Origin: Segatella copri
GTDB taxonomy: Bacteria; Bacteroidota; Bacteroidia; Bacteroidales; Bacteroidaceae
DNA length: 32,415 bases
Assembly (NCBI RefSeq): GCF_019127135.1
Contig: NZ_JAHOEA010000040.1
Span: 1-32,415 of the forward strand
Direction of reading: 5' to 3'
The position numbers and the translations under genes are program-made. Below the pieces are notes generated by a model that ran no database searches, had not been told where the DNA came from, and saw only the letters and a list, made by a program, of their open reading frames with translations. Below are positions 3,127 through 32,384 of the stretch, piece after piece. Within the stretch, counting starts at the first letter, position 1, and each line of letters begins with the position of its first letter.

Positions 3127-5100
3127 ATGGGATTATTTAAGAAACTTTTTTCGATTCTCCAAGGAGATTCAGAAGAGAAAGATATAGAAAATCTTTCCGG
3201 TACTTCTAATTCACAGGAAACAAATTGCTGTGAAGAGAAGAAGCATCAAGCTGAAAAAAAGGTAAAAAAAGAAGTAAGCAAAACTTCTCAAGAGCCGATT
3301 CGCGAACAAAAAGAATTTTACACAAACGAAATCGAAAATAACGATAAAGAAAGTGTAAATTTGGAAGAGCTTAGTTTAGAAGAACTAGAAGAAATGCAGA
3401 AAAAGCTCGAAGTTGACGGAAAAAAAGCTAGACGAAGAGGCGATAAAAAGGCTGAAGAAAAATTGCATTCAGAGTGGCAAAATGTTAGATATACAATATG
3501 GAAGAGACAAAGTGAAAAAAAAGCAGAGAAAGGAGCTGTTGAAAAATCTCAAAAGTCAAATAGCCAGCAACCAAACAGTCACTCTACTCAAATAGAAGAT
3601 AGCGACAAAAAAAAAGTCAATTTGGAAGAACTTAGTTTAGAAGAATTAGAAAAAATGCAGGAAAAGCTCTTCGTCGACATACAAAAAGCCAGACTTAGAG
3701 AAGACAAAGAAGCTGAGAAAGAAATGTATTCAGAGTGGAGAAATGTTAGATCTGCAGTTTGGATAAAAGAAAGAGAGAAAAAGGCTAAGGAAGAAACTGT
3801 AGCCAAGGCAAAGGCTGAAGAAGTTGCTGCTAAGGAAAAGGCTGAAGAAGAAGCTGCTGCTAAGGAAAAGGCTGAAGAAGAGGCTGCAAATCCAACCCTT
3901 GTAGACTCAAAATTTGCAAACCAATTAACTGATGGTGGGAAAAAAAAGAATGTAATATTGCCAGCTTCTGTATGTGAAATCGCTCAATGGGCCTTTGAAG
4001 GCAATAAGACGCTTGAACGTATCGATATGACGTCATGTAACAAGTTGACAATAATCGGGGAAAGAGCATTTTCTGGATGTGAAAATCTGACGAATATCAT
4101 TTTCCCAGAAAATATAGAAGAAATTGGAGAGGAGGCGTTCTATGAATGTAAAGCTCTTGCTTCTGTTGACTTATCAAACTGCAAAAGGCTTAATAAAATC
4201 GGGAAAAATACATTTTCTGGATGTGAAAATCTGACGAATATTATTTTCCCAGAGAATATAGAAGAAATTGGAGTGCTTGCGTTCTCTAATTGCGAAGCTC
4301 TTGCTTCTGTTGACTTATCAAACTGCAAAAAGCTTGATAAAATCGGGGAATCCGCATTTAACTGGTGCCCTTCTCTCGAAGAAGTTCTTCTACCTGAAAG
4401 TTTATCTTCCATTGGAATGTCGGCTTTTTGTAGTTGTAAAATTAGAAACATAGATTTTTCAGCTTGCAAACTTCTCACGAAGTTTCCAGCTAACTTATTT
4501 AATGACTGTAAGTCTTTGGAAGAAGTCGTATGGCCACCACATCTAAAAGAAATTGGTGATATAGCCTTCAGCTGTTGCGAATCATTAAGACGAGTAGAAC
4601 TACCAGACAGCGTAGAAGTTTTGGGAGAAGATATTTTCAAATGGTGTAAATTAAAATCTCTTTCGCTGCCTAAAGACATAAAAAAATTACCTACGTTAAT
4701 AGGACTATCAGGCGAAATAAAGTCGTTAGACATGTCTAGATGCAAAAAGCTTAAAGTTCTAACAGCCCCTATAACTTGCTCTAGTAAGACCATAGTATTT
4801 CCTGTTGGAGTTGAGGAAATTGAGACAGCTGTCTTTAAATACAACAAACCTGGGCAATTTGAATCAATATTTCTTCCACCAACTATCAAAGAGGTTGAAC
4901 TCAACTATTCTGCTGATGATGCCAATGTATATTGCTATGCGCCAGAATTAGAGAACGTAAAAGACATCATAGAGAAATGTGCATGCTTATTAGTGTTACC
5001 ACAATACTATGACAGCTATTTAGACCAAGCTGTAGCAGAAGGCGCAGAAGGATATTTAGACAAAATTCCAGAAGACAAGTTCTACTTCTACGATGAATAG
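3127..5100 (+). CDS. Charged coiled-coil plus BspA-type leucine-rich-repeat protein (657 aa), apparently cytoplasmic
   Basis: Residues about 77-130 and 163-217 are two diverged copies of one charged helical module (both contain LEELSLEELE, then an SEW..VR segment). A low-complexity Ala/Glu/Lys stretch follows to about residue 250. From about 255 to 620 there are BspA-like (LRR_5) repeats with the signature 'AF..C..L..v.lP..i..IG'. Two neighbouring repeats are almost identical at DNA level with a 144-bp period (near 4069 and 4213), indicating recent internal duplication. BspA-type proteins are usually secreted or surface-bound; this one has no signal peptide or sorting signal, so it probably acts inside the cell as a protein-binding partner of the operon. 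Starts 4 bp after the FHA gene. Confidence 0.8.
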   Translation: MGLFKKLFSILQGDSEEKDIENLSGTSNSQETNCCEEKKHQAEKKVKKEVSKTSQEPIREQKEFYTNEIENNDKESVNLEELSLEELEEMQKKLEVDGKKARRRGDKKAEEKLHSEWQNVRYTIWKRQSEKKAEKGAVEKSQKSNSQQPNSHSTQIEDSDKKKVNLEELSLEELEKMQEKLFVDIQKARLREDKEAEKEMYSEWRNVRSAVWIKEREKKAKEETVAKAKAEEVAAKEKAEEEAAAKEKAEEEAANPTLVDSKFANQLTDGGKKKNVILPASVCEIAQWAFEGNKTLERIDMTSCNKLTIIGERAFSGCENLTNIIFPENIEEIGEEAFYECKALASVDLSNCKRLNKIGKNTFSGCENLTNIIFPENIEEIGVLAFSNCEALASVDLSNCKKLDKIGESAFNWCPSLEEVLLPESLSSIGMSAFCSCKIRNIDFSACKLLTKFPANLFNDCKSLEEVVWPPHLKEIGDIAFSCCESLRRVELPDSVEVLGEDIFKWCKLKSLSLPKDIKKLPTLIGLSGEIKSLDMSRCKKLKVLTAPITCSSKTIVFPVGVEEIETAVFKYNKPGQFESIFLPPTIKEVELNYSADDANVYCYAPELENVKDIIEKCACLLVLPQYYDSYLDQAVAEGAEGYLDKIPEDKFYFYDE

Positions 5101-5130: not shown

Positions 5131-7869
5131 ATGAAATGTCCAAAATGTGGGTATCCAGTTTTACCCAAATTTACGAAATGTCCTCATTGTGGCGAAAGCC
5201 TCATCAAAGAGGACAATAACACGAACCTTCCCGATGCTAATGACTTTAGCATCGTAAAGGGACGTGCCATTTGGAATGTACAAAAGGGAGAAATCGCTCA
5301 TCTCATCAAAGAGACTGAGCTGATTAATACCGATGGTCTAAAAGGTGTAATTGTACAAGAAGGATGTAGTGCCATTGTTTTTATGAATGGAATCATCACT
5401 TCCATTATGCAAGCTGGCATTTACTCTTTTCCAACAAAAGAGCCAACCCCTGCTATAAGACCTGTCGTGCCAAGCGAGCCTAAAGCGGGAGACAAGACAA
5501 ACGACTTCACAGGATTTGCAAATGGCGAATCAGCCATAGGACGAGGAATCAGAAATTTCCTTTTTGGCAAGAAAAAAGATGAAAAGCCAGAGCAACATGA
5601 AAAGAGAGTGGATCGCACTAAAGAAAAAATCAACAAGTTGCCTGATCTTAAGACTTGCCGTATCTATATCGTAAGCAACAGACTGTTTAATCTGTTCTTC
5701 GACCTACAAGTTGATGAAGAAGGTAATTACGACTTCGCTCCTTTTGTCATCGCCACAAAAACGGTAGATGCCAAGATTGCACTATCACTGCAAATGCAAG
5801 TTACCAACATGAATGAATTTGTTGGCAACTATCTGACAGACCAACAATCAGTCAGTACTGTATTGTTCCAGCAACAATTGAGAACATGCGTTAAGAGTAC
5901 ATTGACGCAACTATTGCGCAATCTTGATTATCAACAAGATGGCTTACCGGAGCCTATTATCATCAATCTGAAGAATCGCATCAAATCAGCTTGTAACGAA
6001 CAGCTATATGGCATTGAAGTTACCAAGGTACTTGACATAACTGACGAAAGTGAAGATTTCAATCGTTTCCGTTCTGCCGAGCACGATTTGTTTGTCAACG
6101 AGAAAGAATTGGACTATCTCACTAGATCCAACGAATTCCGCAATCGTCTCGAACAAGAGAAGAATAAGCAAGAAGCTAATCAGGCAGCCAATGCTGAATC
6201 TTTGCGACAAACCTTACAAAGCATCAATAAGGACAAATTGCTGAGTGAGGATGAAATGGAGCAGTTCGTCATGATGATGGATAGCCAAAAACGTCTTCGT
6301 GAAGCTAAGACAAAACAAGAAGAATATGAGGCACTTAGCGACATGAAGAAGAGTCGTCTTGTAAAGGAAGAGGACATTGCTGCTCTGGAAAATGTTCTTG
6401 CTCAAAACAAAGTAAGCAGAGACAGCATCGTTGACTTAATGCGTGCCCAAGCTGAGCAAGACCTTGCCTTGAATAAACAAATAGCCGAGTTCAAGCTTTC
6501 AGACAACAAGAAAGACCATGATATAGCAAATGAGCTCAAAGATGCTCTACACAAAGGTAAACTTGCCAGCACCCAACTTGATACGAAACGCATTATTGAC
6601 GCTTATCAGGATGAACGCCGCAAGAAGGAAGATGACTACACTTTTGCCCAGCAGCAGCGTAAGGATGATTATCAATTCCAGCAGGAACAGAAACTAGAAG
6701 ATAGTTCTTTCAATCGTCAAAAACGACAAAACGACTGGGAGTTTAGCAACCAGCAAAGACAAAGCGATTGGGAATTCAATAATCAGCAGCGACAGCAAGA
6801 CGCTGATTTCAAGTCCCGTGTACAGAATGAAGATTATGACTTTCAAAAGCAGCAACGACAGCAAGACGCTGATTTCAAGTCCCGTGTACAGAATGAAGAC
6901 TATGATTTCCAGAAGCAGCAGCGACAGGACAACAGAGACTTCTTGAAGCAACAGCGTGACTTCCAAGGAAAAGTACAGAACGACGACTACGAATTTTTGA
7001 AGAAGCAACGTCTCGATGAACACCAGTTTGAACAAGACAAGCGCAAGTTCCAAAGTCGTGTGCAGAACGAAGACTATGACTTCCAGAAGATGCAACGAGA
7101 GCAGGCCTTAAAGGAAGAGCAGAATCAAGCAGATTTTATGCGCCAACGTCAAAACAAGTTTGATGACTTGGATGTATTGGAGAGAAAAGCTGCGATTGCT
7201 CAACGTAACATGAAGGCAATGAAAGAAGCAGAACTTGCAGAACTTCAAGAGAAGAACCGCTCAGCAGAAACAATGCAGTCGATGAATCTCAATGTAGAGA
7301 TGAACCGTGACAATCTCTTTGCCAATATGACTGCAGAGCAAATACGTGCAGCGCAGCTTTCTCACCTTTCAAGTGATGCTCAGGCAGAAATGGCAAAGTC
7401 TTATAGTTCTGAAAAGGAGAATGAACTTCGTGCACAACAACAAGCTGAACAGAAAGCCCTTTATGAGCAAATGATGCAAAATCAAATGGCGCAAAACAGT
7501 CAGAATCAAGAGATGATGATGAAAATGGCGCAAATGATGCAACAAGGCATGATGGGAATGGGCCAACAGCAAATGGCTGCTCAGCAACAGCGCTATGACG
7601 ACCAGGTTGCTATGAAGCAAGAGTATCGTGAGAATGCGATGCGCCAGCAACAGCGTACAGATCATACTCAAGATAGTGCTTTAGACAACATCGGTAGAGT
7701 CAGCACAGCTGCTGCAAGCAACATGAATGCTTACGGAGGAAGAAACCAGCAATATCAGCAACCTTCCCAACCTCAACAGCCTGCTGCTCGCACCAAGACC
7801 TGCCCAAGTTGCGGAGCGGAATTTGATGCAGACGAGACATTCTGCCCAGAATGTGGATCTAGAGTATAA
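5131..7869 (+). CDS. Zinc-ribbon / SPFH (band 7-like) / coiled-coil / zinc-ribbon protein (912 aa)
   Basis: An N-terminal zinc ribbon has C3, C6, C17 and C20. From about residue 40 to 330 there is an SPFH-like domain of the type often named 'virion core protein-like' (starts IVKGRAIWNVQKGEIAHLI). Residues about 330-770 are a long Gln/Glu/Lys-rich coiled coil, including a perfect 22-residue tandem repeat at 552-573 and 574-595. A Met/Gln-rich stretch follows, then a C-terminal zinc ribbon (CPSC...CPEC). No transmembrane helix is seen. SPFH proteins form large membrane-associated rings or microdomains; the same role is inferred here, with the zinc ribbons as binding ends. It is the largest member of the run and its likely scaffold. 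Confidence 0.85.
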   Translation: MKCPKCGYPVLPKFTKCPHCGESLIKEDNNTNLPDANDFSIVKGRAIWNVQKGEIAHLIKETELINTDGLKGVIVQEGCSAIVFMNGIITSIMQAGIYSFPTKEPTPAIRPVVPSEPKAGDKTNDFTGFANGESAIGRGIRNFLFGKKKDEKPEQHEKRVDRTKEKINKLPDLKTCRIYIVSNRLFNLFFDLQVDEEGNYDFAPFVIATKTVDAKIALSLQMQVTNMNEFVGNYLTDQQSVSTVLFQQQLRTCVKSTLTQLLRNLDYQQDGLPEPIIINLKNRIKSACNEQLYGIEVTKVLDITDESEDFNRFRSAEHDLFVNEKELDYLTRSNEFRNRLEQEKNKQEANQAANAESLRQTLQSINKDKLLSEDEMEQFVMMMDSQKRLREAKTKQEEYEALSDMKKSRLVKEEDIAALENVLAQNKVSRDSIVDLMRAQAEQDLALNKQIAEFKLSDNKKDHDIANELKDALHKGKLASTQLDTKRIIDAYQDERRKKEDDYTFAQQQRKDDYQFQQEQKLEDSSFNRQKRQNDWEFSNQQRQSDWEFNNQQRQQDADFKSRVQNEDYDFQKQQRQQDADFKSRVQNEDYDFQKQQRQDNRDFLKQQRDFQGKVQNDDYEFLKKQRLDEHQFEQDKRKFQSRVQNEDYDFQKMQREQALKEEQNQADFMRQRQNKFDDLDVLERKAAIAQRNMKAMKEAELAELQEKNRSAETMQSMNLNVEMNRDNLFANMTAEQIRAAQLSHLSSDAQAEMAKSYSSEKENELRAQQQAEQKALYEQMMQNQMAQNSQNQEMMMKMAQMMQQGMMGMGQQQMAAQQQRYDDQVAMKQEYRENAMRQQQRTDHTQDSALDNIGRVSTAAASNMNAYGGRNQQYQQPSQPQQPAARTKTCPSCGAEFDADETFCPECGSRV
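6784..6915 (+). repeat. Perfect-frame 66-bp tandem repeat in the SPFH gene
   Basis: Two direct copies, 6784-6849 and 6850-6915, encode the same 22 residues (motif QQDADFKSRVQNEDYDFQK) and differ only at a few third-position bases. Weaker copies of the RVQNEDYDFQ core lie on both sides, up to about 7090. Unit length preserves the coiled-coil frame, so copy number could change without breaking the protein. Confidence 0.9.
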
Positions 7870-8799: not shown

Positions 8800-9330
8800 A
8801 TGGCAGCAAAAATGTCTTTATGTATTATCAAATACACCTATACTCAATACGCAGGGGTGGATATCGAAAAATATACTCGAGGACTATTCGAGTATGTGAA
8901 GGAAGCGTTTGGGGAGTTTCGACCACAAATGTCAGAGCCTGGAACTATACCTGATATGCCAGACTATCTGGATATCGTGCTCTGCAAAAAGGATGGAAGC
9001 ATCTTCTACAAAATGGATATCGCAAGACGTGCCATCAACATCCCGCGCGACTTTCAGCTGGAAGGATTGGTCCTGGAAATCTCTATCACCAACTGTGATG
9101 GTACAAATTACAAGAAGAGACACCTATATCATCGTTTCGGGAATTGTAACGGAAAAGAGGATACCAAGTCGGACATGAGAAAACTGAAAATTCATAAAAC
9201 TATCAGCAAAAGGAATCTTAACAATCAAGAAGGCAAAGACTCTGAAGGCATCAGAATACCTGAACTTAGACCACAGATTGACTTTCACGATTTTTTAAGA
9301 CAATTATCCCATGACATACGAAAAATTTAA
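8800..9330 (+). CDS. Hypothetical protein (176 aa), C-terminus extended by a duplication
   Basis: I place the start at the ATG at 8800 (MAAKMSL), 22 bp after the previous stop and just after a purine-rich GGGAAG; a TTG at 8761 would overlap the upstream gene. The product is soluble with a PDMPDYLDIVLCKKDG segment and a basic C-terminal part. No family recognised. The original ending is preserved downstream: the second copy of the repeat at 11147 reads IDFHKFLK then stop, whereas here the copy reads IDFHDFLRQLSHDIRKI. The stop has mutated, so this gene now runs about nine codons further and overlaps the start of the broken gene at 9311. Confidence 0.7.
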   Translation: MAAKMSLCIIKYTYTQYAGVDIEKYTRGLFEYVKEAFGEFRPQMSEPGTIPDMPDYLDIVLCKKDGSIFYKMDIARRAINIPRDFQLEGLVLEISITNCDGTNYKKRHLYHRFGNCNGKEDTKSDMRKLKIHKTISKRNLNNQEGKDSEGIRIPELRPQIDFHDFLRQLSHDIRKI

Positions 9331-9474
9331 GCATTTGGCTGAGCATCCACAGCATCAGGATGTTCCTATCATCTTCAAACTCGAAGTGTTAGAAACGGAA
9401 GAGCTGGAGGAAAAGAAGCGTTCACATTATCCGAAATATAAGGTGAACACCTATTGTCCGCAAGCCTTCACCAC
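9276..9474 (+). repeat. Left copy of 199-bp direct repeat flanking the ATPase cassette
   Basis: This segment matches 11147-11345 along its whole length without gaps, starting at GATTGACTTTCAC and ending at TTCACCAC. Differences are scattered substitutions, so the duplication is not brand new. It contains the end of the 176-residue gene and the first 55 codons of the zinc-ribbon gene now intact at 11182. Confidence 0.9.
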
Positions 9475-9556
9475 GAAAAGAATAGAACTTTTCCCTCATA
9501 AAAGTTTGGTGGTATCATTTTTTTGTTGTAGCTTTGCAAATGAATTAATTCGATGA
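9311..9556 (+). pseudogene. Truncated 5' duplicate of the zinc-ribbon gene at 11182
   Basis: Residues 1-54 repeat the N-terminus of the 342-residue protein downstream (MTYEKFKHLAEHPQHQDVP against MTYEEFKQLAEHPQHRDVP). Similarity stops sharply after TTCACCAC at 9474. The remaining codons run into the promoter region of the ATPase and are not expected to be functional. The fragment is what insertion of the cassette left behind, or the by-product of the duplication that came with it. Confidence 0.85.
9505..9536 (+). promoter_or_regulatory. Bacteroidota promoter carried by the ATPase cassette
   Basis: -33 box TTTG at 9505-9508, exactly 20 bp, then -7 box TAGCTTTG at 9529-9536, matching the phylum's TTTG-N19-21-TAnnTTTG consensus. 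Expected transcription start is near 9543, about 18 nt before the ATG at 9561. It lies outside the 199-bp repeat, so it entered with the cassette. Confidence 0.8.
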
Positions 9557-9560
9557 CGCA

Positions 9561-11120
9561 ATGGCAAGAAAATTATATCCTATAGGAATTCAGACATTTG
9601 AACGGATCCGCAAGGAGGATAAGTTCTATATAGATAAGACGGAATATGTCTATCGTATGACTCATACGGATGGAACGTATTTCTTCTTGAGTCGCCCACG
9701 CCGTTTCGGCAAATCGCTGCTGGTTTCAACCTTCCAAAGTTATTTCGAGGGAAAGAAGGAACTGTTCAAGGGGCTTGCCATCGAGAAGTTGGAGAAGGAG
9801 TGGAATACTTATCCTGTTCTGCACTTCGACCTGAGCAAGGGTAAGCATATGGAGAAGGAGCAGCTAGAAGAGCATCTGGGCTACCTTTTGGAAGATTATG
9901 AACAAAAGTATGGTATAGAAAAGCACCGTAACGGAAACAATAATCGGTTCAATGACTTGATAGAAGTGGTTTTCCAAAAGACAGGCAAGCAGGTGGTGGT
10001 GCTCATTGATGAATATGACGCTCCGCTGCTGGATGTGGCGCATGAAAAAGAAAAACTTGATGAGCTCCGTAACACAATGCGCAACTTCTATAGTCCTCTG
10101 AAGGGAAACGAGTCTATGCTTCGATTTGTCTTTATGACGGGCATCACGAAGTTTTCGCAGCTCAGCATCTTCAGCGAGCTGAACAACATCACCAACGTGA
10201 GTATGGACGAGCCTTACGCCGGCATCTGCGGCATCACCAAGGAGGAAATGTTAACCCAGATGAGTGATGACATCGACGCTCTTGCCAAGCATCTAGAACT
10301 GAGCAGGGAGGAGACCATCCAGGAACTCAAAGACCATTATGATGGTTATCACTTCACATGGCCATCGCCTGATATTTTCAATCCTTATAGCTTGCTCAAT
10401 TGTTTCGCAAAACAAGATTTGAGAGCTTTTTGGTTTGAGTCTGGCACACCTGTTTATCTTATCAACATGATGAGAAAATTCAAGGTTCTTCCTTCTATGT
10501 TGGGCAGGATGAGAGCCAAGGCTTCCTCTTTTGATGCTGCTACGGAAAAAATGACTAGTTTGTTGCCTTTGCTTTACCAAAGCGGATATTCCACCATCAA
10601 AGGGTACGAGAAAAAGACCAGGGTTTATACCTTGGATATTCCAAATCGAGAAATTTTTATCGGTCTTTATGAGAGCTTGTTGCCTGGATATGTGCAGTCG
10701 GAATCTGATGAAGGAAAGGTGGTGATAGCTGATATTTCCACCTATCTGGAAGACAAGGATATGGAAGGGGCGTTACAACTCTTGGCAGACTTCTTGGCGA
10801 CGGTGCCTTATTGTGCCAATACGGATTATGAGGGACATTACCAGCAGATGTTTTATATCATCTTTGCCTTGCTTACTGACTACAATATTATTGTGGAGCA
10901 GCACACGGCTAAAGGGAGAATCGACATCACGATGGAGACTGCCGACACCATCTATGTGATGGAACTGAAATTCAATAAGAGTGCGCAAGAGGCATTAGAT
11001 CAAATCAATGACAAGCATTATGCCCAAGCCTTTGCCTTGAAGAATAAGGAAATTGTAAAGGTGGGCTTGAACTTCTCTGTCAAAGACGAGGTGAATACTC
11101 TGGAATGGGTGATTTCCTAA
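9561..11120 (+). CDS. AAA-ATPase-like / PD-(D/E)XK protein (519 aa)
   Basis: The family is recognised as AAA-ATPase_like (PF09820) with a C-terminal PDDEXK_9 domain (formerly DUF1703), a group present in many copies in Bacteroidota genomes. The N-terminus LYPIGIQTFERIR is typical. The P-loop is RPRRFGKS at about 45-52, an atypical Walker A. Walker B is VVVLIDEYDAP at about 145-155. Near the C-terminus, GRIDITM and YVMELKFNKS give the D...ExK nuclease core, followed by the expected Gln. Length is normal, so the gene is probably intact. Biological role of the family is not settled. It lies between two 199-bp direct repeats and has its own promoter, which marks it as an inserted unit. Confidence 0.9.
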   Translation: MARKLYPIGIQTFERIRKEDKFYIDKTEYVYRMTHTDGTYFFLSRPRRFGKSLLVSTFQSYFEGKKELFKGLAIEKLEKEWNTYPVLHFDLSKGKHMEKEQLEEHLGYLLEDYEQKYGIEKHRNGNNNRFNDLIEVVFQKTGKQVVVLIDEYDAPLLDVAHEKEKLDELRNTMRNFYSPLKGNESMLRFVFMTGITKFSQLSIFSELNNITNVSMDEPYAGICGITKEEMLTQMSDDIDALAKHLELSREETIQELKDHYDGYHFTWPSPDIFNPYSLLNCFAKQDLRAFWFESGTPVYLINMMRKFKVLPSMLGRMRAKASSFDAATEKMTSLLPLLYQSGYSTIKGYEKKTRVYTLDIPNREIFIGLYESLLPGYVQSESDEGKVVIADISTYLEDKDMEGALQLLADFLATVPYCANTDYEGHYQQMFYIIFALLTDYNIIVEQHTAKGRIDITMETADTIYVMELKFNKSAQEALDQINDKHYAQAFALKNKEIVKVGLNFSVKDEVNTLEWVIS

Positions 11121-11146
11121 CACTGAGGGGTTAGCCGATGGATTAC

Positions 11147-11345
11147 GATTGACTTTCACAAATTCTTAAAATAACCATCCCATGACATACGAAGAATTCA
11201 AGCAATTGGCTGAGCATCCACAGCATCGGGATGTTCCTGCCATCTTCAAGCTCGAAGTTTTAGAAACAGAAGAGCTGGAGGAGAAAAAGCGTTCACATTA
11301 TCCGAAATACAAGGTGAACACCTATTGTCCGCAAGCCTTCACCAC
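11147..11345 (+). repeat. Right copy of 199-bp direct repeat flanking the ATPase cassette
   Basis: Partner of 9276-9474. This copy holds the apparently ancestral arrangement: the IDFHKFLK-stop tail of the upstream gene, then the start of the intact zinc-ribbon gene at 11182. The unique cassette is therefore 9475-11146 (1672 bp). Confidence 0.9.
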
Positions 11346-12210
11346 AACTCTGGAGGAGGCTGAGAGACTGATGCACCAGGATGTCCTTTACCGCAAGAAG
11401 ATGAAGGAGGAAGACGACTATCCGCTGGATACCTTCTGCTATTATATCTCGGAGATTCCAATGGGACTGTTGCACTACGACCGCGAATGTCTTTCGGAAA
11501 GGATGTATAATGGGGAAGGAAAACTGATCGACCGGTCTTACTGCTGTTCGCGTTTCAGCATTTACTATCCCGGAGTCTGCGATTTGCCTGCATACGACCG
11601 TCATCCTGACGAGACCTTCCGAGGCAGAAACGCAGAACAGATTAGATTCCAGAAAGGTGACATCGTGGAAATATATCGTGGCGATGAGGTAAAACTTGCC
11701 ATCGTTGTCGGTACTCCGCTTACCACCGAATGGATCTGGGAGAGAAACCAGGCTGCCAAGGATAAAAGGGGATTGGATGAACTGCCATATGATGAGACGG
11801 ATGACAGCTATACCGTGATAGATGGTCCTGGTTACGAGTACCACGACCACGTTCCGTCGCTGTATGTCTTCGCCCCTCACTATCATGTGCCGCTCTATCT
11901 TCTGAGACGATTCAAGGGGTATCTGGAAAAGGCTGAGAAAAAGCAGAAAGAAGAGGAGGAGAAAGACAGGATTTTCCGCCAGGCTCACGACTGCTGCTAC
12001 AGCAACAAGGAACAGATAGAGAAGTCTGAAAAGTGCGGCTGCTTCTTCTGCGGCGAAATCTTCACGCCATCCGAAATCACGGATTACCTCCCTGATGAGC
12101 CGCCTACAGCTGAATGTCCCTTCTGTTTTACCGACTCCGTAATAGGTGATGCCTCCGGCTTCCCTATCACCAAGGATTTCTTGAAGAAAATGAAGAAGAG
12201 ATGGTTCTAG
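11182..12210 (+). CDS. C-terminal zinc-ribbon protein of unknown function (342 aa)
   Basis: Intact copy of the gene whose first part is duplicated at 9311. The C-terminus from about residue 285 has KCGCFFCGEIF ... AECPFCFTDSVIGD, a CxC/CxxC plus CxxC zinc-binding arrangement resembling a small conserved zinc-ribbon domain ending in 'DSVIGD.SG.PIT..FL..M...WF'. The central part has a possible beta-rich domain (VEIYRGDEVKLAIVVG). No signal peptide. The ATG at 11182 is supported by conservation between the two repeat copies. It was probably cotranscribed with 8193 and 8800 before the insertion; now it may depend on read-through from the ATPase gene. Confidence 0.8.
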   Translation: MTYEEFKQLAEHPQHRDVPAIFKLEVLETEELEEKKRSHYPKYKVNTYCPQAFTTTLEEAERLMHQDVLYRKKMKEEDDYPLDTFCYYISEIPMGLLHYDRECLSERMYNGEGKLIDRSYCCSRFSIYYPGVCDLPAYDRHPDETFRGRNAEQIRFQKGDIVEIYRGDEVKLAIVVGTPLTTEWIWERNQAAKDKRGLDELPYDETDDSYTVIDGPGYEYHDHVPSLYVFAPHYHVPLYLLRRFKGYLEKAEKKQKEEEEKDRIFRQAHDCCYSNKEQIEKSEKCGCFFCGEIFTPSEITDYLPDEPPTAECPFCFTDSVIGDASGFPITKDFLKKMKKRWF

Positions 12211-12294
12211 GGCGTTTTTTCAATGTTTTCATCTATCTTCCTCCCCTATCTCATGGGGGCAGTATCAGTTTTGAAAACGGACATAAAAAATGCG

Positions 12295-12342
12295 ATAGCA
12301 CCGCCCTAACTACCTGTTTTTATACAGTTAGAGGGGTGCTAT
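12295..12342. terminator. Long imperfect hairpin between convergent genes
   Basis: Arms ATAGCACC..CCTAACT and AGTTAGAGGGGTGCTAT pair over 17 positions with two mismatches around a 14-nt loop. On the plus strand it is followed by AATAAAAAAG rather than a T tract, so it may act with the next hairpin or protect the mRNA end. Confidence 0.6.
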
Positions 12343-12354
12343 TAATAAAAAAGA

Positions 12355-12392
12355 AGCAGGATGGAAGACTGGTCCACCCTGCTATTTTTATT
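12355..12392. terminator. Bidirectional terminator between the zinc-ribbon gene and hmuR
   Basis: AGCAGGATGG (12355-12364) pairs with CCACCCTGCT (12374-12383) with one G-U pair. A T tract follows on the plus strand (ATTTTTATT). On the minus strand the complement of AATAAAAAAGA gives a T-rich tail, so it can end both the plus-strand gene and the haem operon. Confidence 0.8.
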
Positions 12393-14565
12393 AGAATACC
12401 TTTACGAAACGGTCGATATCGATAGAAAGACCTACTGAGAAGGTGCGGCCGGTGGTCATCGCAGAACTCCAATAATAGTTCTTTGGCGTATAACCGAAAA
12501 GATTATCTACCGTAAAGTTCAGATTGACGGCATCCAGGAATCGCTGCTGAAGCGTGAACTTCCACAACTGATAACTGCTGTCATGCTTCTTGATGTTCGT
12601 ATCAGGAGAAGACAGGTATCTGCCTGACAGAGCGGCATTGATGCGATAGAACGAACAGAGCTGGCGATCGTAGTCGAGACGCCAGGTGGCGGTATGAGGA
12701 CGAGGCTGGGAGAACTGGGAATCTACACTTCTGCCACCCACATGGAGATAACTGTAGTCGAGTTTCACACCGAGGCCCATATCCGAACGATACTGGGCAC
12801 TGAAGTCGATGCCGCTCACCTCTACTCCATCCTCATTGCAATAACGGGAAGCCACATCCGGCTGACCGGTTCCCGGGGTATAATCGGCATAATCCTCGGT
12901 AGTGATGCGCTTATCATACTTATTATAATAGCCCATCAGGGTAAGACTATACTGACCGGTAAAGAAGCCAGCATTCTTCACCCTTCCGGTATGCTCCAGC
13001 GCCAGGTTGTAGTTGTCGCTCTTCTCCGGCTTCAGATCCGGATTACCGTAAATCATCTGCATACCTGCCATATCAAAATTCATATACATCTCCTTGAGCG
13101 TTGGGGCACGGAATCCGCCGGCATAGTTGGCACGGATGGAGAAACCCTTCCACTTAGTCATCAGAGCCAGACGACCGGTAGTAGCATGCTGGCTGGATGC
13201 AGAGAAGTAATCATGACGAAGACTTGCCACGATGTTCAACCACTGCAAAGGATTGTAATCGAACTGGGCGAAGGCATCACATGAATTCTGATTCTTTGAT
13301 TCATTATCCTCAAACTGATAGGTGGTAAGATAATCGTTCAGGAAATCTGCACCTACCGTCAATGTATTCTTGCCGAAGATATGGGAATAGAGGGCACGGA
13401 CGGTGTTCTGACGGTTGGTATAATCGTGGTCGTGAGTACGTTCATCATTCACATATCGAGCCTTGTCATACTGGTCGAAGCCGTAAGAAATCTCCAAATT
13501 ATCATTCTCAGAAAGATTCATCACGGTTTTCAGTCCGGCAGAATAATCCATGTAATGATCATCATAGTTGCTGCGCTTGCTGATACGATTGAAATAACCG
13601 CCACGACCTATCAGTTTTACCTTATCAGAGAGCTTGTAGGTAAGACGCTCCTTCACATTGAAGGTCTCTCCACCATAGATATGGAGGATGTTGGATTCTG
13701 TATCGAAAGGACTGGTAAGCTGAACCTCATCCGATGTGGTGCGCTGGATGCTGGTCTGCGAATTCCATTTTCCGGCATTGAAGCTGAAGCTTCCACCGTG
13801 GCGCCACTCCTTGTTGAAGTCGTTGTAGCGGGTATTGACATTGGCAGTCCAAGGTTCGCTGTTTTCACGGGAGATGATGTTGACAACTCCGGCTACGGCA
13901 TTGGCGCCATAGAGCGCCGAAGCAGCACCCTTTACTATCTCGATACGTCCTACATTATCCAAGTTCAGACGACTATAATCTACATTATCCATGGTTTCAC
14001 CAGCCAATCGCTCGCCATCTACGAGGAAGAGCACGGCGTTTCCACCGAAACCATTCATGTTGAGAGAAGTCTCCTGATTCATGGCATAGCCGAATTCCAG
14101 ACCCGGCATCTGCTCGGTGAGGAGGTCCTGGATATTGGTAGCATCAGCTATCTTGATATCATTGGCGGTAATCAGACGGGTTACCACAGGAGCATCCTTC
14201 AAAGCCTTCGGAGTTCGGGTTGCGGTAACTACCACCTGGTCGAGGGCAGTAGCATCCGGTTGAAGGCGAAGCACATGCTGCTCACCTTTTCTCTCATCCG
14301 CTTTCAGTACGAAAGTCTGAGTCTGATAGCCCACAAAGCTCACCTTCACTCTCACCGCTCCATCCTTGCTGTAAGGAATGCGGAAATATCCGTCTTCATC
14401 AGTTGTTACCCCATCCTTTGCATGCAAAATCTGGACGGTAGCACCCGCCAGAGGTGCGCCCGAATCATCGAGCACTCTACCCACGACATCGCCCTGGGTT
14501 TCGGCTTTCAGATTCAGGCACAATCCGCAAAGGATCAGGAATAGTGCGAATATCTTTTGTTTCAT
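12391..14565 (-). CDS. hmuR: TonB-dependent outer-membrane haem receptor, HmuR-like (724 aa)
   Basis: A signal peptide spans residues 1 to about 21. A carboxypeptidase-D regulatory-like domain follows at about 26-105 (VVGRVLDDSGAPLAGATV). The plug is at about 110-235 (VVVTATRTPKALKDAPV ... VEIVKGAASALYGANAVAGVVNI type), then a 22-strand beta barrel ends near the terminal Phe. The haem-receptor landmarks FRAP (485-488) and NPDL (508-511) are present. Between them, where HmuR-type receptors carry a haem-ligating His, this protein has no His but several Met (MYMNFDMAGMQM). It is the last gene of the operon, 35 bp after the lipoprotein. Haem is the probable substrate from context; Met coordination is an inference. 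Confidence 0.85.
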   Translation of the reverse strand: MKQKIFALFLILCGLCLNLKAETQGDVVGRVLDDSGAPLAGATVQILHAKDGVTTDEDGYFRIPYSKDGAVRVKVSFVGYQTQTFVLKADERKGEQHVLRLQPDATALDQVVVTATRTPKALKDAPVVTRLITANDIKIADATNIQDLLTEQMPGLEFGYAMNQETSLNMNGFGGNAVLFLVDGERLAGETMDNVDYSRLNLDNVGRIEIVKGAASALYGANAVAGVVNIISRENSEPWTANVNTRYNDFNKEWRHGGSFSFNAGKWNSQTSIQRTTSDEVQLTSPFDTESNILHIYGGETFNVKERLTYKLSDKVKLIGRGGYFNRISKRSNYDDHYMDYSAGLKTVMNLSENDNLEISYGFDQYDKARYVNDERTHDHDYTNRQNTVRALYSHIFGKNTLTVGADFLNDYLTTYQFEDNESKNQNSCDAFAQFDYNPLQWLNIVASLRHDYFSASSQHATTGRLALMTKWKGFSIRANYAGGFRAPTLKEMYMNFDMAGMQMIYGNPDLKPEKSDNYNLALEHTGRVKNAGFFTGQYSLTLMGYYNKYDKRITTEDYADYTPGTGQPDVASRYCNEDGVEVSGIDFSAQYRSDMGLGVKLDYSYLHVGGRSVDSQFSQPRPHTATWRLDYDRQLCSFYRINAALSGRYLSSPDTNIKKHDSSYQLWKFTLQQRFLDAVNLNFTVDNLFGYTPKNYYWSSAMTTGRTFSVGLSIDIDRFVKVF

Positions 14566-22521: not shown

Positions 22522-22572
22522 ACCTAAAAATGATGGTTTCGCAGAAATACCTAAATATGGGGATAGATAAAA

Positions 22573-22679
22573 AGTTTTAGGACGATTCATCCTAAAACTT
22601 CTCTAATTTCAAAAGTTTTAGGACGATTCATCCTAAAACTTTCTTAAATATTCTACTTTTAGGATGATTTATCCTAAAA
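22573..22679 (+). repeat. Three phased palindromes upstream of the DUF4143 ATPase
   Basis: Copies at 22573-22599, 22614-22640 and 22657-22679. All have the form TTTTAGGA-N7-TCCTAAAA; the first two extend to ten-base arms AGTTTTAGGA/TCCTAAAACT and share the centre CGATTCA. Centres are at 22586, 22627 and 22668, that is 41 and 41 bp apart (about four helical turns), so all face the same side of DNA. The third overlaps the spacer of a possible promoter whose -7-like TATCTTCG is at 22686-22693. They look like operators, but could also form RNA hairpins. Confidence 0.85.
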
Positions 22680-22727
22680 AAATAGTATCTTCGCAGCAAA
22701 TATATAATCAAAGAGCAATGAAATGAT

Positions 22728-24675: not shown

Positions 24676-25053
24676 AATGTTATTGTTTAAAATTACTATA
24701 ATATATTCTATAATCTCTTGAATCTAGGTTTGTTATGCAGATTCGTATCTATCGGTTACAAATATAATAGTTTTATTTTAGATAAGAATGATTTCAAACT
24801 CAAATTAACTATAATTCAATATTTTTTTATTTTTCCATTTGTTCTACTGCCATAGTTCTTAGTTGTTAGGCTTATTCAGGTTACAATAGATATTGCATAG
24901 ATAGAAATTACAAGGTAGACTTTTAGGTTCGGTTTTTGAAAGTGAGTCCTGCTGGCAGTGATGCCGGCAGGATTCTGCGTTATTATGCTCTAATGCAGAC
25001 TGCGCTTACTTAAATTCTTCAATCTACGGGCAAACTCAGGTGCAACCTCTATC
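24676..25053. other. Intergenic region with a toxin stub and a hairpin repeat
   Basis: From 24676 to about 24930 the DNA is AT-rich with no gene; it probably holds the PepSY-like gene's promoter. From 24923 to 24974 a segment is nearly identical to 32076-32125, which follows the intact RelE gene. From 24990 to 25064 lies a toxin stub described separately. Confidence 0.5.
24945..24974 (+). repeat. Dispersed hairpin repeat, copy 1
   Basis: TCCTGCTGGC and GCCGGCAGGA pair around AGTGAT. Three other copies lie at 29753, 31302 and 32094. Its left flank GGTTCGGTTTTTGAAAGTGA is shared with copy 4 only. Here it does not directly follow an intact gene on the plus strand. Confidence 0.85.
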
Positions 25054-27936: not shown

Positions 27937-28033
27937 GCAGTGATTGCAATATTTTTGCTTTCTGAGCTTGGAATTCATATTCTGTAAGAACTCCGGAATC
28001 TCTGAGTTGCACCTATTTTGTCAATTCATCAAC
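27937..28033 (-). pseudogene. C-terminal SHOCT-domain fragment cut by the IS element
   Basis: The minus strand reads VDELTK, stop, VQLRDSGVLTEYEFQAQKAK and then into the IS end. This is the SHOCT motif (short helical C-terminal domain, 'L..LRD.G.LTEEEFQA.KAKIL'). One in-frame TAG has appeared, the 3' end is replaced by the IS, and the 5' side ends where the copied leader at 28034 begins. The rest of the gene is not in the window. Confidence 0.7.
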
Positions 28034-28116
28034 AATGAATCCACAAAGAAAGTAAGTAACATTAATATAGTAACAATTTTAAAAAGATAAGATTATGAAG
28101 AAGTTCATTTTGCAGC
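28034..28116 (+). repeat. Broken copy of the leader and start of the secreted-protein gene at 29434
   Basis: Matches 29370-29456: AATGAATCCACAAAGAAAGT, the A-rich leader, and the start ATGAAGAAGTT. The copy keeps the start codon (28095) but a one-base change of frame ends it after about ten codons. It shows that this leader-gene unit has been duplicated and then lost its body. Confidence 0.8.
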
Positions 28117-29164: not shown

Positions 29165-29433
29165 TTTTGAAAATCATAGCTTACCTATTATTACATGGTT
29201 GGGTACCTTACATTCCCCAACTTTTTGTGGAATGTTTCCACATACTTTCCTCATTTTCTACACTATCTACTTTTGACACAAAAAAGAACATAAACGTCTG
29301 ATAATCAACGCATATTATTTTCTCGTTTTTTTTGGCACACAGATTGTGACTATGAATAGCGGGTTCGAAAATGAATCCACAAAGAAAGTAAGTAAGTAAC
29401 ATTAAATAGTAACAATTTTAAAAATATACGATT
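29165..29433. other. Intergenic leader region of the secreted-protein gene
   Basis: No coding signal is seen on either strand. It contains a short dyad CATTCC...GGAATG near 29210-29233 and, from 29370, the A-rich leader that is copied at 28034. No clear TAnnTTTG promoter is visible. Confidence 0.4.
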
Positions 29434-29685
29434 ATGAAGAAGTTTATGTTTGCAGCTATCGCAGCTATGGTAATGGTTTCAGTAAGCAACGTTTTTGCAT
29501 CAAGCAGAATGGTAAGTAACGCAGAGGTAGCACCAGTTGATACCATGGTTCCAGATGCTCCTTCAGATACATTGGCAACAGGTACTTCTATCAAGCCACA
29601 GGCTACCACTGAGGATTCTATCCAGCAGGAGACAACTCAGCCGCAGGAGTCTACAGAGACTGAGCAGCAGGCAAATGCTGAATAA
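29434..29685 (+). CDS. Small secreted Thr/Gln/Glu-rich protein (83 aa)
   Basis: A signal peptide (MKKFMFAAIAAMVMVSVSNV then FAS) is followed by a low-complexity, probably disordered mature part of about 60 residues rich in Thr, Gln, Glu, Ser and Pro. There is no lipobox, so it should be released to the periplasm. No family is recognised. A broken N-terminal copy lies at 28034 and a decayed C-terminal copy at 30928-31221, and the same hairpin repeat follows both this gene and the decayed copy, so the unit of duplication was leader, gene and terminator. Confidence 0.7.
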   Translation: MKKFMFAAIAAMVMVSVSNVFASSRMVSNAEVAPVDTMVPDAPSDTLATGTSIKPQATTEDSIQQETTQPQESTETEQQANAE

Positions 29686-29752
29686 GAATTCACAAGAAAG
29701 TTCTATTAAGTTCAATTGAGTTTATTTTGCAATCGACATATAAGAAAAGCGT

Positions 29753-29786
29753 AGAATCCTGATGGCTGTAATACCAGCAGGATTCT
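29753..29786 (+). terminator. Dispersed hairpin repeat, copy 2, after the secreted-protein gene
   Basis: AGAATCCTG.TGG and CCA.CAGGATTCT pair around a short loop; the tail TGCGTTATTATT is moderately T-rich. It is the same repeat as 24945, 31302 and 32094, and its 60-bp left flank matches that of copy 3. Confidence 0.75.
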
Positions 29787-29836
29787 GCGTTATTATTACG
29801 CATTGATAAATTTTTGTGTTAAATTCGTGAAAAATA

Positions 29837-30927: not shown

Positions 30928-31221
30928 ATGCTCCTTCAGATACTTTTAGTCTAAGCCAAGAAGGGAATTGCTCCCAAAGCAAATAACCCATTTTGAGTTC
31001 GACTAAACTACGACTAAAACCCACCTTTTTCCATCTATTATTTTTATGATACCTTTTTTCTTAAGCGTAGAGAGGAAGATACTCATATAGCAACAGAAGA
31101 GAACACCCAGTCAGAGCAGCCAGCTACTACTGTTCAGGAAACTCCACAGGAGTAAACTCAGGAGGAGACAACTCTGCAGCAGGAGGCTACAGAGACAGAG
31201 CAGCAGACAAATACTGAATAA
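30928..31221 (+). pseudogene. Decayed, interrupted copy of the small secreted-protein gene
   Basis: ATGCTCCTTCAGATAC at 30928-30943 is identical to 29555-29570 in the intact gene. The match resumes near 31086 and reads IATEENTQSEQPATTVQETP, then an in-frame TAA, then TQEETTLQQEATETEQQ to the stop at 31221, like the intact QQETTQPQESTETEQQANAE. The 140 bp between are unrelated. The 3' flank to 31335 also matches that of the intact gene. Confidence 0.75.
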
Positions 31222-31301
31222 GAAATCATAAGAGAGTTCTGTAGAGTTCAATTGAGTTCATTTTGCAGACGACATATTTAAGAAATTAATAGGGAAAGCG
31301 T

Positions 31302-31335
31302 AGAATCCTGCTGGCAGTGATGCTGGCAGGATTCT
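31302..31335 (+). terminator. Dispersed hairpin repeat, copy 3
   Basis: AGAATCCTGCTGGC and GCTGGCAGGATTCT pair around a short loop, followed by GTGTTTTTTGG, the best T tract of the four copies. It stands after the decayed secreted-protein copy, as copy 2 stands after the intact gene. Confidence 0.8.
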
Positions 31336-31434
31336 GTGTTTTTTGGATGCAGCAGCATATACATACATAGATTTCAAAAGAGTAAGCTAAAGAAAGAACT
31401 CAAAAGTTTAATTCAATTAAAAAAAGCAAAAAAC

Positions 31435-31748: not shown

Positions 31749-32076
31749 TATTGAAACAACTCCTCATTTCGAAAAGGAGTTAAAGGACTTAGCTAAACGC
31801 TATAAGTCCATGAAACAGGATTTTGGCAAATTCAAAGAATCCTTAAAAGAAGATCCTTTTCAAGGAGTTGACTTAGGTGGTGGGTTAAGAAAAATCCGCA
31901 TGGCTATTGATTCCAAAAGAAAAGGTAAAGCTGGAGGAGCTAGAGTTATTACATATACAACATTAGTAGATGAAAATACTGGTGAAGTATGGTTGATAGA
32001 AATCTATGACAAATCTGAATTCTCCACCATCAAGACTGACGTCATAAAGAAAATGCTAAAAGAGTTGGGACTATAG
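31738..32076 (+). CDS. RelE/ParE-type toxin (112 aa)
   Basis: MSYNIETTPHFEKELKDLAK and the central FQGVDLGGGLRKIRMAID then GGARVITYTTLV match RelE-superfamily toxins, with the basic strand and the final YDKSEFSTIKTDVIKKML helix. Length is normal. Toxins of this group cut mRNA on the ribosome or, in the ParE branch, act on gyrase; I cannot separate the two from sequence alone. The antitoxin gene overlaps its start, and hairpin repeat copy 4 follows its stop by 18 bp. Confidence 0.85.
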   Translation: MSYNIETTPHFEKELKDLAKRYKSMKQDFGKFKESLKEDPFQGVDLGGGLRKIRMAIDSKRKGKAGGARVITYTTLVDENTGEVWLIEIYDKSEFSTIKTDVIKKMLKELGL

Positions 32077-32093
32077 GTCCGGTTTTTGAAAGT

Positions 32094-32125
32094 GAATCCT
32101 GCTGGCAGTGATGCCGGCAGGATTC
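32094..32125. terminator. Dispersed hairpin repeat, copy 4, between convergent genes
   Basis: GAATCCTGCTGGC and GCCGGCAGGATTC pair around AGTGAT. It lies between the end of the toxin gene and the end of a minus-strand coding remnant, so it may stop transcription from both sides. The 20-bp left flank is shared with copy 1. Confidence 0.8.
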
Positions 32126-32129
32126 TTGC

Positions 32130-32384
32130 TTAATAGCCCCTGTTAAACTCATCAAGTATCTGACGAAGATTATCATCAAGCACATAATTATATACACAAC
32201 GAGATACTTATGGCTATTTGCGAGGACTAGGGATGAAGAAATCCTCAGGAGAGAAATCATCCCCTTTTTGGCCTGGTCTTTTTGGCGTCCATGTTCTAAC
32301 ATGAATCTTAGGATTTCCTTCTTCTGTAAAATCCCACAACAAGAACACATAGCCATCATCTCCTGACTTTGACAAAATGTGTAC
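32130..32384 (-). pseudogene. C-terminal remnant(s) of a minus-strand gene at the right edge
   Basis: From plus 32384 to 32214 the minus strand encodes 56 residues with normal codon use: VHILSKSGDDGYVFLLWDFT ... RTWTPKRPGQKGDDFSPEDF, ending IPSPRK. A stop lies just upstream, so the frame is broken or shifted there. In the same frame after TAG and TAA, a further stretch reads VYNYVLDDNLRQILDEFNRG then a stop at 32130. The family is not recognised. It could be one decayed gene or two fragments; the right edge hides the rest. Confidence 0.5.

Follow-up and report, generated by a model that had tools for sequence, protein, structure and literature searches.

The window analysed here is the whole 32,415-nucleotide contig NZ_JAHOEA010000040.1 of Segatella copri (assembly GCF_019127135.1). 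In it a gene for an AAA-ATPase_like/PDDEXK_9 (DUF1703-type) protein lies between two 199-bp direct repeats, each of which copies the junction between two other genes, here called A and B. We favour, at a probability of roughly 0.6, the reading that the ATPase gene sits in a recombining array of a duplicated A-B unit, its flanking repeats being remnants of two homologous units and not a target duplication made by the ATPase. The locus is best read as an array of cassettes at a repeated gene pair, driven by recombination, the mechanism of which we infer. To our knowledge there is no agreed role or way of spreading for the orphan ATPase/nuclease genes of gut Bacteroidota. The features of the locus, with open reading frame (ORF) lengths in amino acids (aa), are as follows.

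8800..9330 (ORF start 8761 TTG or 8800 ATG), forward strand: gene A, from ORF and translation; no Pfam match; six other copies have an A at 65-88% identity
9276..9474, forward strand: left junction copy, an A end (type I allele) plus the first 55 codons of B, from repeat search and allele comparison
9311..9556, forward strand: truncated B frame (B'), 81 aa, 55 B residues followed by a tail from the ATPase upstream region
9475..11146, forward strand: ATPase unit between the repeats, 1672 bp, from repeat search
9500..9538, forward strand: promoter-like element AAAAGTTTGGTGG...TAGCTTTGC, also ahead of unrelated genes of the genus
9561..11120, forward strand: AAA-ATPase_like/PDDEXK_9 (DUF1703-type) gene, 519 aa, from ORF, Pfam and motifs
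11147..11345, forward strand: right junction copy, the last 35 bp of another A (type II allele), then the start of intact B
11182..12210, forward strand: gene B, intact, 342 aa, from ORF; no Pfam match
12212..12291, forward strand: repeat R, the 3′ flank of B, which recurs between cassettes in related strains
12391..14565, reverse strand: TonB-dependent receptor, right flank of the locus, from ORF and Pfam

A repeat search of the window returned the pair 9276-9474 and 11147-11345 as gap-free, 90% identical copies of 199 bp with a spacing of 1871. Aligning the left flank to the right with blastn gave 90.45% identity over 199 nt (E = 3e-76), which excludes chance; the copies differ at 19 sites. 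What both copies repeat is the place where gene A (8800-9330) meets gene B (11182-12210). The first 35 bp of the left repeat are the 3′ end of A; B ends after codon 55 in the left copy, and the right copy runs into the intact 342-aa B. The preliminary description had reported two gap-free junction copies around one ATPase gene and an intact gene beside the insert, and both observations were confirmed. The sole long gene within the 1672 bp between the repeats (9475-11146) is the one at 9561-11120, with PF09820 and PF08011. There is no transposase in the unit, where the ATPase gene is the only ORF above 100 aa, and no inverted repeats of at least 25 nt (the search threshold) were found at its ends. 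The B' frame stops 4 nt upstream of the ATPase ATG, and relatives P0004-P0007 have the same B'-ATPase joint.

The favoured reading draws on what sequence comparison established: the junction is multicopy, empty sites exist, the alleles of the two copies differ in ancestry, and the occupied and empty forms are one crossover apart. The genus samples comprised 299 and 398 genomes of a larger group, plus 149 relatives. A contig scan with B gave five loci, from strain Indica, iA622, a Prevotella metagenome-assembled genome and Leyella stercorea. Three A-B units stand in one array in Indica: the first (L092 11573-12542) has A and a B start fused to a different tail, the second (L092 14459-15833) has A-B intact, and the third, from L092 19008, is likewise intact and is found whole in L001 5457-7029. 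The complete genome G048 has two A-B units with a shortened B, and iA622 has at least two junctions (L003, L004), both contigs ending inside B at residue 90. Outside the window, 10 junction copies were read (two in L092, and one each in L001, L002, L003, L004, L005, L093, L094 and L290), and the ATPase gene is at the junction in none of them.

The preliminary description proposed looking for the empty site in relatives, and empty sites were found. The third Indica unit (L001 5457-7029) is the orthologous empty site; it has its upstream flank in common with the window (99% over 316 bp), and it has the same extended, "stop-lost" A frame and the same 35 bases as the left copy of the window. The lost stop of A is therefore no consequence of the ATPase, being already present at an ATPase-free site. 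The second empty site is in the fecal scaffold MT839553.1 (= L290), whose junction is 97.6% identical through B into the TonB gene; its A is complete, longer than that of the window, and ends in nearly the A-end sequence of the right copy. This scaffold, labelled "Bacteriophage sp.", carries A-B-R and part of the TonB gene, and looks like bacterial chromosome in a virome set. The TonB receptor also lies near B in G048 (L094) and in Indica, there after an extra hexosaminidase-like gene. The right flank of the locus matches Indica at 94% over 4.1 kb, which places the window in the Segatella copri clade.

Allele comparison concerns the origin of the two copies more directly. Left and right copies differ at 19 sites, whereas the right copy differs from L003 at 4 and the left from Indica at 13; because differences to other junctions are the smaller, the window copies are not each other's nearest relatives. 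At the 19 sites the empty junction of Indica agrees with the left copy wherever they precede the B ATG (7/7) and with the right copy wherever they follow it (12/12). Joined together, the outer halves differ from Indica at 1 of 199 positions, with the crossover falling within offsets 30-47, and one exchange across the repeats turns the occupied form into the empty form. At each of the 7 sites the A-end base of the right copy is found in 2-7 of 9 other junctions, some A ends aligning poorly. Six of the 12 B-start changes of the left copy are alleles of other junctions, five of these six being synonymous. From this outer and inner sorting of alleles, and from the A end of MT839553.1, the window brings together two units of different type, one to the left and one to the right of the ATPase.

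The preliminary description had seen the repeats as the product of ATPase insertion. Spelled out, the ATPase unit would have entered a single A-B junction and doubled 199 bp of target sequence, B being kept and the dead halves decaying afterwards. Empty sites do exist and the outer halves match that of Indica, as such an event predicts, but we judge it unlikely: the copied junction is multicopy without an ATPase, and the right A-end, together with half of the B-start changes in the left copy, consists of alleles that also stand at other junctions and is no private decay. Plain duplication and decay would account for the outer-half match; to account for the shared alleles it would need later exchange as well.

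In the protein collection the first part of B continues into many tails or internal deletions, and the break could be placed for 99 of 101 matches, at residues 19-118. The largest class (18 matches) breaks at residue 35 and includes many internal deletions of B; 10 matches break at residue 58, seven of them with a fusion tail starting KERMM, and 7 break at residue 55, the ATPase joint among them. Two proteins with that joint, P0006 and P0007, were placed at 53 and 50 through substitutions, and some broken-B proteins in the collection will be assembly chimeras. The B'-ATPase joint is present with several B-start alleles (P0004-P0008, P0011), as expected if exchange continues inside the repeat. 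That the window itself is an assembly chimera, or its arrangement chance, we regard as very improbable: the iA622 contigs end inside B, so misassembly at the locus is possible, but the joint recurs in other assemblies (P0004-P0007, whose clusters at 90% identity have 444 member sequences, the representatives showing the joint and the members not read singly).

Long flanking repeats had also been suggested as a general insertion mechanism of the ATPase family. The ATPase regions compared were 20 from the 34 Indica matches (E ≤ 0.001, fragments included), 20 from four other genomes, and further G048 regions. For 55 deduplicated ATPase genes, 400-bp flanks were compared for direct repeats at E ≤ 1e-4, with 125 genes from the same regions as controls; 450 bp on each side and an ORF of at least 300 aa were required, and shorter or edge copies were dropped. 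Repeats were found at 7/55 ATPase genes and 7/125 controls, three of the 7 control matches being ATPase cassettes bounded by R in the same neighbourhoods (L092, L093), which makes the control rate no clean background. Among the 7 ATPase genes two form the L277 tandem pair and three have short repeats (L145, 22 bp; L156, 54 bp at 74%; L163, 32 bp). Non-tandem repeats of at least 60 bp occur at only two of the 55 genes (2/53 without the tandem pair), the window and L288 of G048. With flanks of up to 2.5 kb (43 ATPase genes, window included) the 199-bp repeat of the window is the longest non-tandem one, followed by L153 (58 bp at 93%, 70 bp at 84%), L156 (54 bp, 74%), and L138 and L152 (40 bp each); the window, L153 and L156 alone reach 50 bp. 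Eleven further G048 genes gave repeats at the L277 tandem pair, L282 (= L288) and L228 (= L163). The idea of a family-wide flanking repeat did not hold up in this comparison, and L131 has an empty site (G002:C35) with no duplication beyond an A-tract.

Several candidates were set aside or qualified. The repeats of L140 and L277 belong to tandem ATPase pairs, L277 2293-5935 (G048) being a tandem duplication of the ATPase unit with a period of ~1.8 kb at 92% identity. The 40-bp repeat of L138 is a repeated terminator-like hairpin; ~3 kb is inserted there relative to the empty site in G002:C24. At L153 (ATPase gene at 6267-7820, G003:C110) the 58-bp repeat in the flanks also matches inverted (L006) and may be a hairpin element. 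L126 and L147 looked like a moved 1656-bp unit (98%) and are more likely one variable locus, because the stretch next to the unit in G002 is found 3.7 kb away from it in G001, on the same contig. L131 and L150, from two genomes, have in common a 1652-bp unit at 90% identity, made up of the gene, ~80 bp upstream and 7 bp downstream, with differing flanks; this shows compact mobility or turnover. No clean empty site was found for L150, and no right flank was obtained for L134.

The following points weigh against the reading from two homologous units. Two other ATPase genes have locus-derived repeats with no known unit duplication. L163 (G048) has repeats of ~30 bp (2835-2866 and 4578-4607) that are single copy at the empty site, G002:C24 near 311,600. 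The 95-bp repeat of L288 (86%; 6021-6114 and 7642-7734) duplicates the last part of an 867-aa gene that lies upstream; the two copies span G048:C1 844,020-845,733, and the last residues of the L288 ATPase are read out of frame from the repeat copy. Both cases favour target duplication, although the left repeat of L163 resembles the upstream flank of a paralogous ATPase and may have come with the unit. The L163 repeat is also dispersed (12 matches in 7 loci, some overlapping), and together with L153 it makes the family comparison less clear-cut. Live halves that equal the empty site and dead halves that differ are what duplication with decay of the dead halves would also give. The other six of the 12 left B-start changes are private, and their effect is 3 amino-acid substitutions and 2 silent changes. 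The window's gene A is a mosaic (~80-92% to other copies over different stretches), and exchange after insertion could have altered the left A-end. An intermediate, two full units with an ATPase between, was in no genome found, and a search with the joint in 398 genomes gave no match beyond the 199 bp, so that a parent was not seen.

Given L163 and L288, the family comparison only weakens the idea of insertion with flanking repeats. A mechanism of long target duplication is not needed here, and among the genes compared it is not a rule of the family. The earlier insertion reading therefore stands in part: empty sites exist and B is intact, while the repeats as an insertion product and the general family mechanism are not supported. 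One caution follows: where genes are duplicated, direct repeats on either side of an insert do not on their own point to transposition as the mechanism.

The control matches of the flank test brought to notice repeat R (12212-12291, core CCCCTATCTCATGGGGGCAGTATCAGTTTTGAAAACGGACATTAAA), which starts at the B stop codon. Beyond the core, the 18 copies that were aligned either show no relation or group into a few classes. When the collected loci, which are mostly ATPase neighbourhoods and not whole genomes, were scanned for the motif, R turned up nowhere but in A-B loci and always pointed the same way. The order in G048 (L093 8555-13891, with the R-bounded cassettes at 9624-13891) is A, B, R, ATPase_2 gene, R, GNAT-like gene, R, DUF4143 ATPase, R. 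The Indica arrays (L092 9401-18505) read R-AbiE pair-R and B-R-GNAT-like-R-DUF4143-R. In iA622 the order is R-ATPase-R (L004), the putative ATPase there beginning almost like that of L093. The GNAT label is a reading of sequence with no Pfam match, and AbiE rests on PF08843 for the second gene. Cassette orientation is mixed, the AbiE pair on the forward strand and the GNAT-like gene and ATPases on the reverse. Presence and absence of the ATPase_2 cassette is exact at R: Indica has one R (L092 15864-15919) and G048 two (L093 9654-9709 and 11352-11407). The window is the empty form of a cassette site that is filled in the second G048 unit (L094), there with no second R. An Rfam search of the G048 array gave one match, far below the gathering score and taken as chance. 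Cassette genes flanked by locus-derived repeats recur at the A-B locus.

The same observations allow a different route, in which an ATPase circle with one junction copy would integrate by a single crossover, through RecA or a dedicated recombinase in trans, like the R-bounded cassettes. The outer and inner halves of the repeats sort as single-crossover integration predicts, and the exact ATPase_2 difference between Indica and G048 fits as well. We nevertheless find this quite improbable: no circle was observed, loss of the ATPase by recombination gives the same pattern, the L094 cassette lacks a second R, and the only recombination-type matches among 10 array ORFs scanned were a DDE transposase and a group II intron maturase.

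Under the favoured reading, the A-B unit would duplicate and the units exchange sequence. The left repeat would be the A-B junction of one unit, its B lost after codon 55, and the right repeat the junction of another, its A lost except for the last 35 bp. A crossover across these remnants would remove the ATPase so that a single A-B pair stays intact; in reverse it would bring the ATPase in. For the window, this accounts for the relation to the empty site that was seen. More generally, cargo between homologous stretches, whether the junction (J) or R, would be gained or lost by crossing over. B would be intact by construction, because the remnants (199 bp, ~90%) recombine to one intact A-B pair. 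We infer RecA-type recombination as the agent, as well as the direction of events and the first arrival of the ATPase between units. Tentatively, the A-B loci of Segatella copri may be a cassette platform with R, more rarely J, as the exchange site, where recombination of a homologous or site-specific kind would move single genes (ATPase/nuclease, GNAT-like or toxin-antitoxin) in and out with B unharmed; this could be a route to the abundance of the ATPases in Bacteroidota. ATPases present or absent exactly between locus-derived repeats would give a testable route of spread, repeat recombination, in common human-gut bacteria, and the A-B locus gives a set of natural empty and occupied sites.

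A promoter had been proposed ahead of the ATPase gene, and a promoter-like element is indeed present at about 9500-9538, which we take to be a Bacteroidota housekeeping promoter; it is common elsewhere in the genus. Of 26 loci with such an element that were checked, a script placed it in 19, and a DUF1703-type gene was never next after it (0/19 placed loci), L121 having an ATPase match ~0.9 kb further on. The element was rejected as a mobile-element end because it precedes unrelated genes.

A Pfam scan of the ATPase gave PF09820 in the N-terminal part (E = 5.1e-69) and PF08011 in the C-terminal part (7.7e-23), and the protein has a Walker A motif (RPRRFGKS), a Walker B motif (DEYD) and a nuclease motif (D..ELK). 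By these domains and motifs the gene at 9561-11120 is a predicted DUF1703-type ATPase/nuclease. No match at E ≤ 0.01 was found among sequences of solved structures, and PADLOC gave a weak Cas4 match only. A plasmid collection held only distant relatives (6 records, 60-80%). Relatives of up to 61% were in 33 phage records, and one relative (63%) was in a collection of viral contigs; that last collection gave no match for B relatives, the joint pattern or the R pattern.

No toxin or immunity domain was recognised by Pfam in gene A or gene B, and B has no NCBIfam match. The sole PHROG match of B is phrog_30788, of unknown function, and cluster P0107, of close relatives of B, has 16,491 member sequences. 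The predicted model of B is fairly confident (mean predicted local distance difference test score, pLDDT, 84). It matched no PDB fold at E ≤ 0.001 and had one BFVD match below E 0.001, to a viral protein of 89 residues that bears the name RPC12/RpoP, over 80 columns.

The window has other repeats. Three head-to-tail 41-bp palindromic copies around TTTTAGGA..TCCTAAAA lie at 22570-22692. A dispersed, hairpin-like and terminator-like repeat around CCTGCTGGCAGTGATGCCGGCAGG is at 24924-24985, 29740-29794, 31283-31344 and 32074-32135. The right part also has a duplicated gene start (28029-28111 and 29365-29450) and 143-bp repeats (29599-29741 and 31135-31277).

Proteins with AAA-ATPase_like (PF09820) and PDDEXK_9 (PF08011) domains were described as DUF1703 by Knizewski et al. 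2007 (PMC1913061), and in the parts of that paper available to us their function is called unknown and the Walker A and Walker B motifs are given as seen here. An expansion of DUF1703 genes in Cardinium cCpun, for which variation by mutation and recombination was inferred, is likewise of unknown function in the available text (PMC6387759). Our ATPases resemble these proteins in the two domains, the motifs and the multiple copies per genome; flanking repeats or junction copies are not described in the portions of the two papers at hand (PMC1913061, PMC6387759). A search of open-access literature, judged by titles, found none on A-B-R arrays, and we do not claim absence in print.

Insertion sequences duplicate their target and leave direct repeats around the insert. 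The window resembles them in having an insert between direct repeats and a known empty site, and differs in that its repeats, at 199 bp and 10% diverged, are not a short identical duplication and its unit has no transposase. Integron cassette arrays consist of single-gene cassettes separated by a recurrent short sequence, and A-B arrays likewise have the recurrent site R between single-gene cassettes and one exact cassette indel. They differ from integrons in mixed cassette orientation, in an R that begins at the B stop codon, in a cargo of ATPase, GNAT-like and AbiE genes, and in having no integrase among the 10 array ORFs scanned (no attC-structure or whole-genome integrase search was made). 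Rhs and contact-dependent inhibition (CDI) module arrays are tandem gene families rearranged by homologous recombination. A and B differ from these in having no recognised toxin or immunity domain, and B in having no PDB fold match; they are alike in that truncated copies keep a conserved start while their 3′ parts differ, just as B fragments end in many tails.

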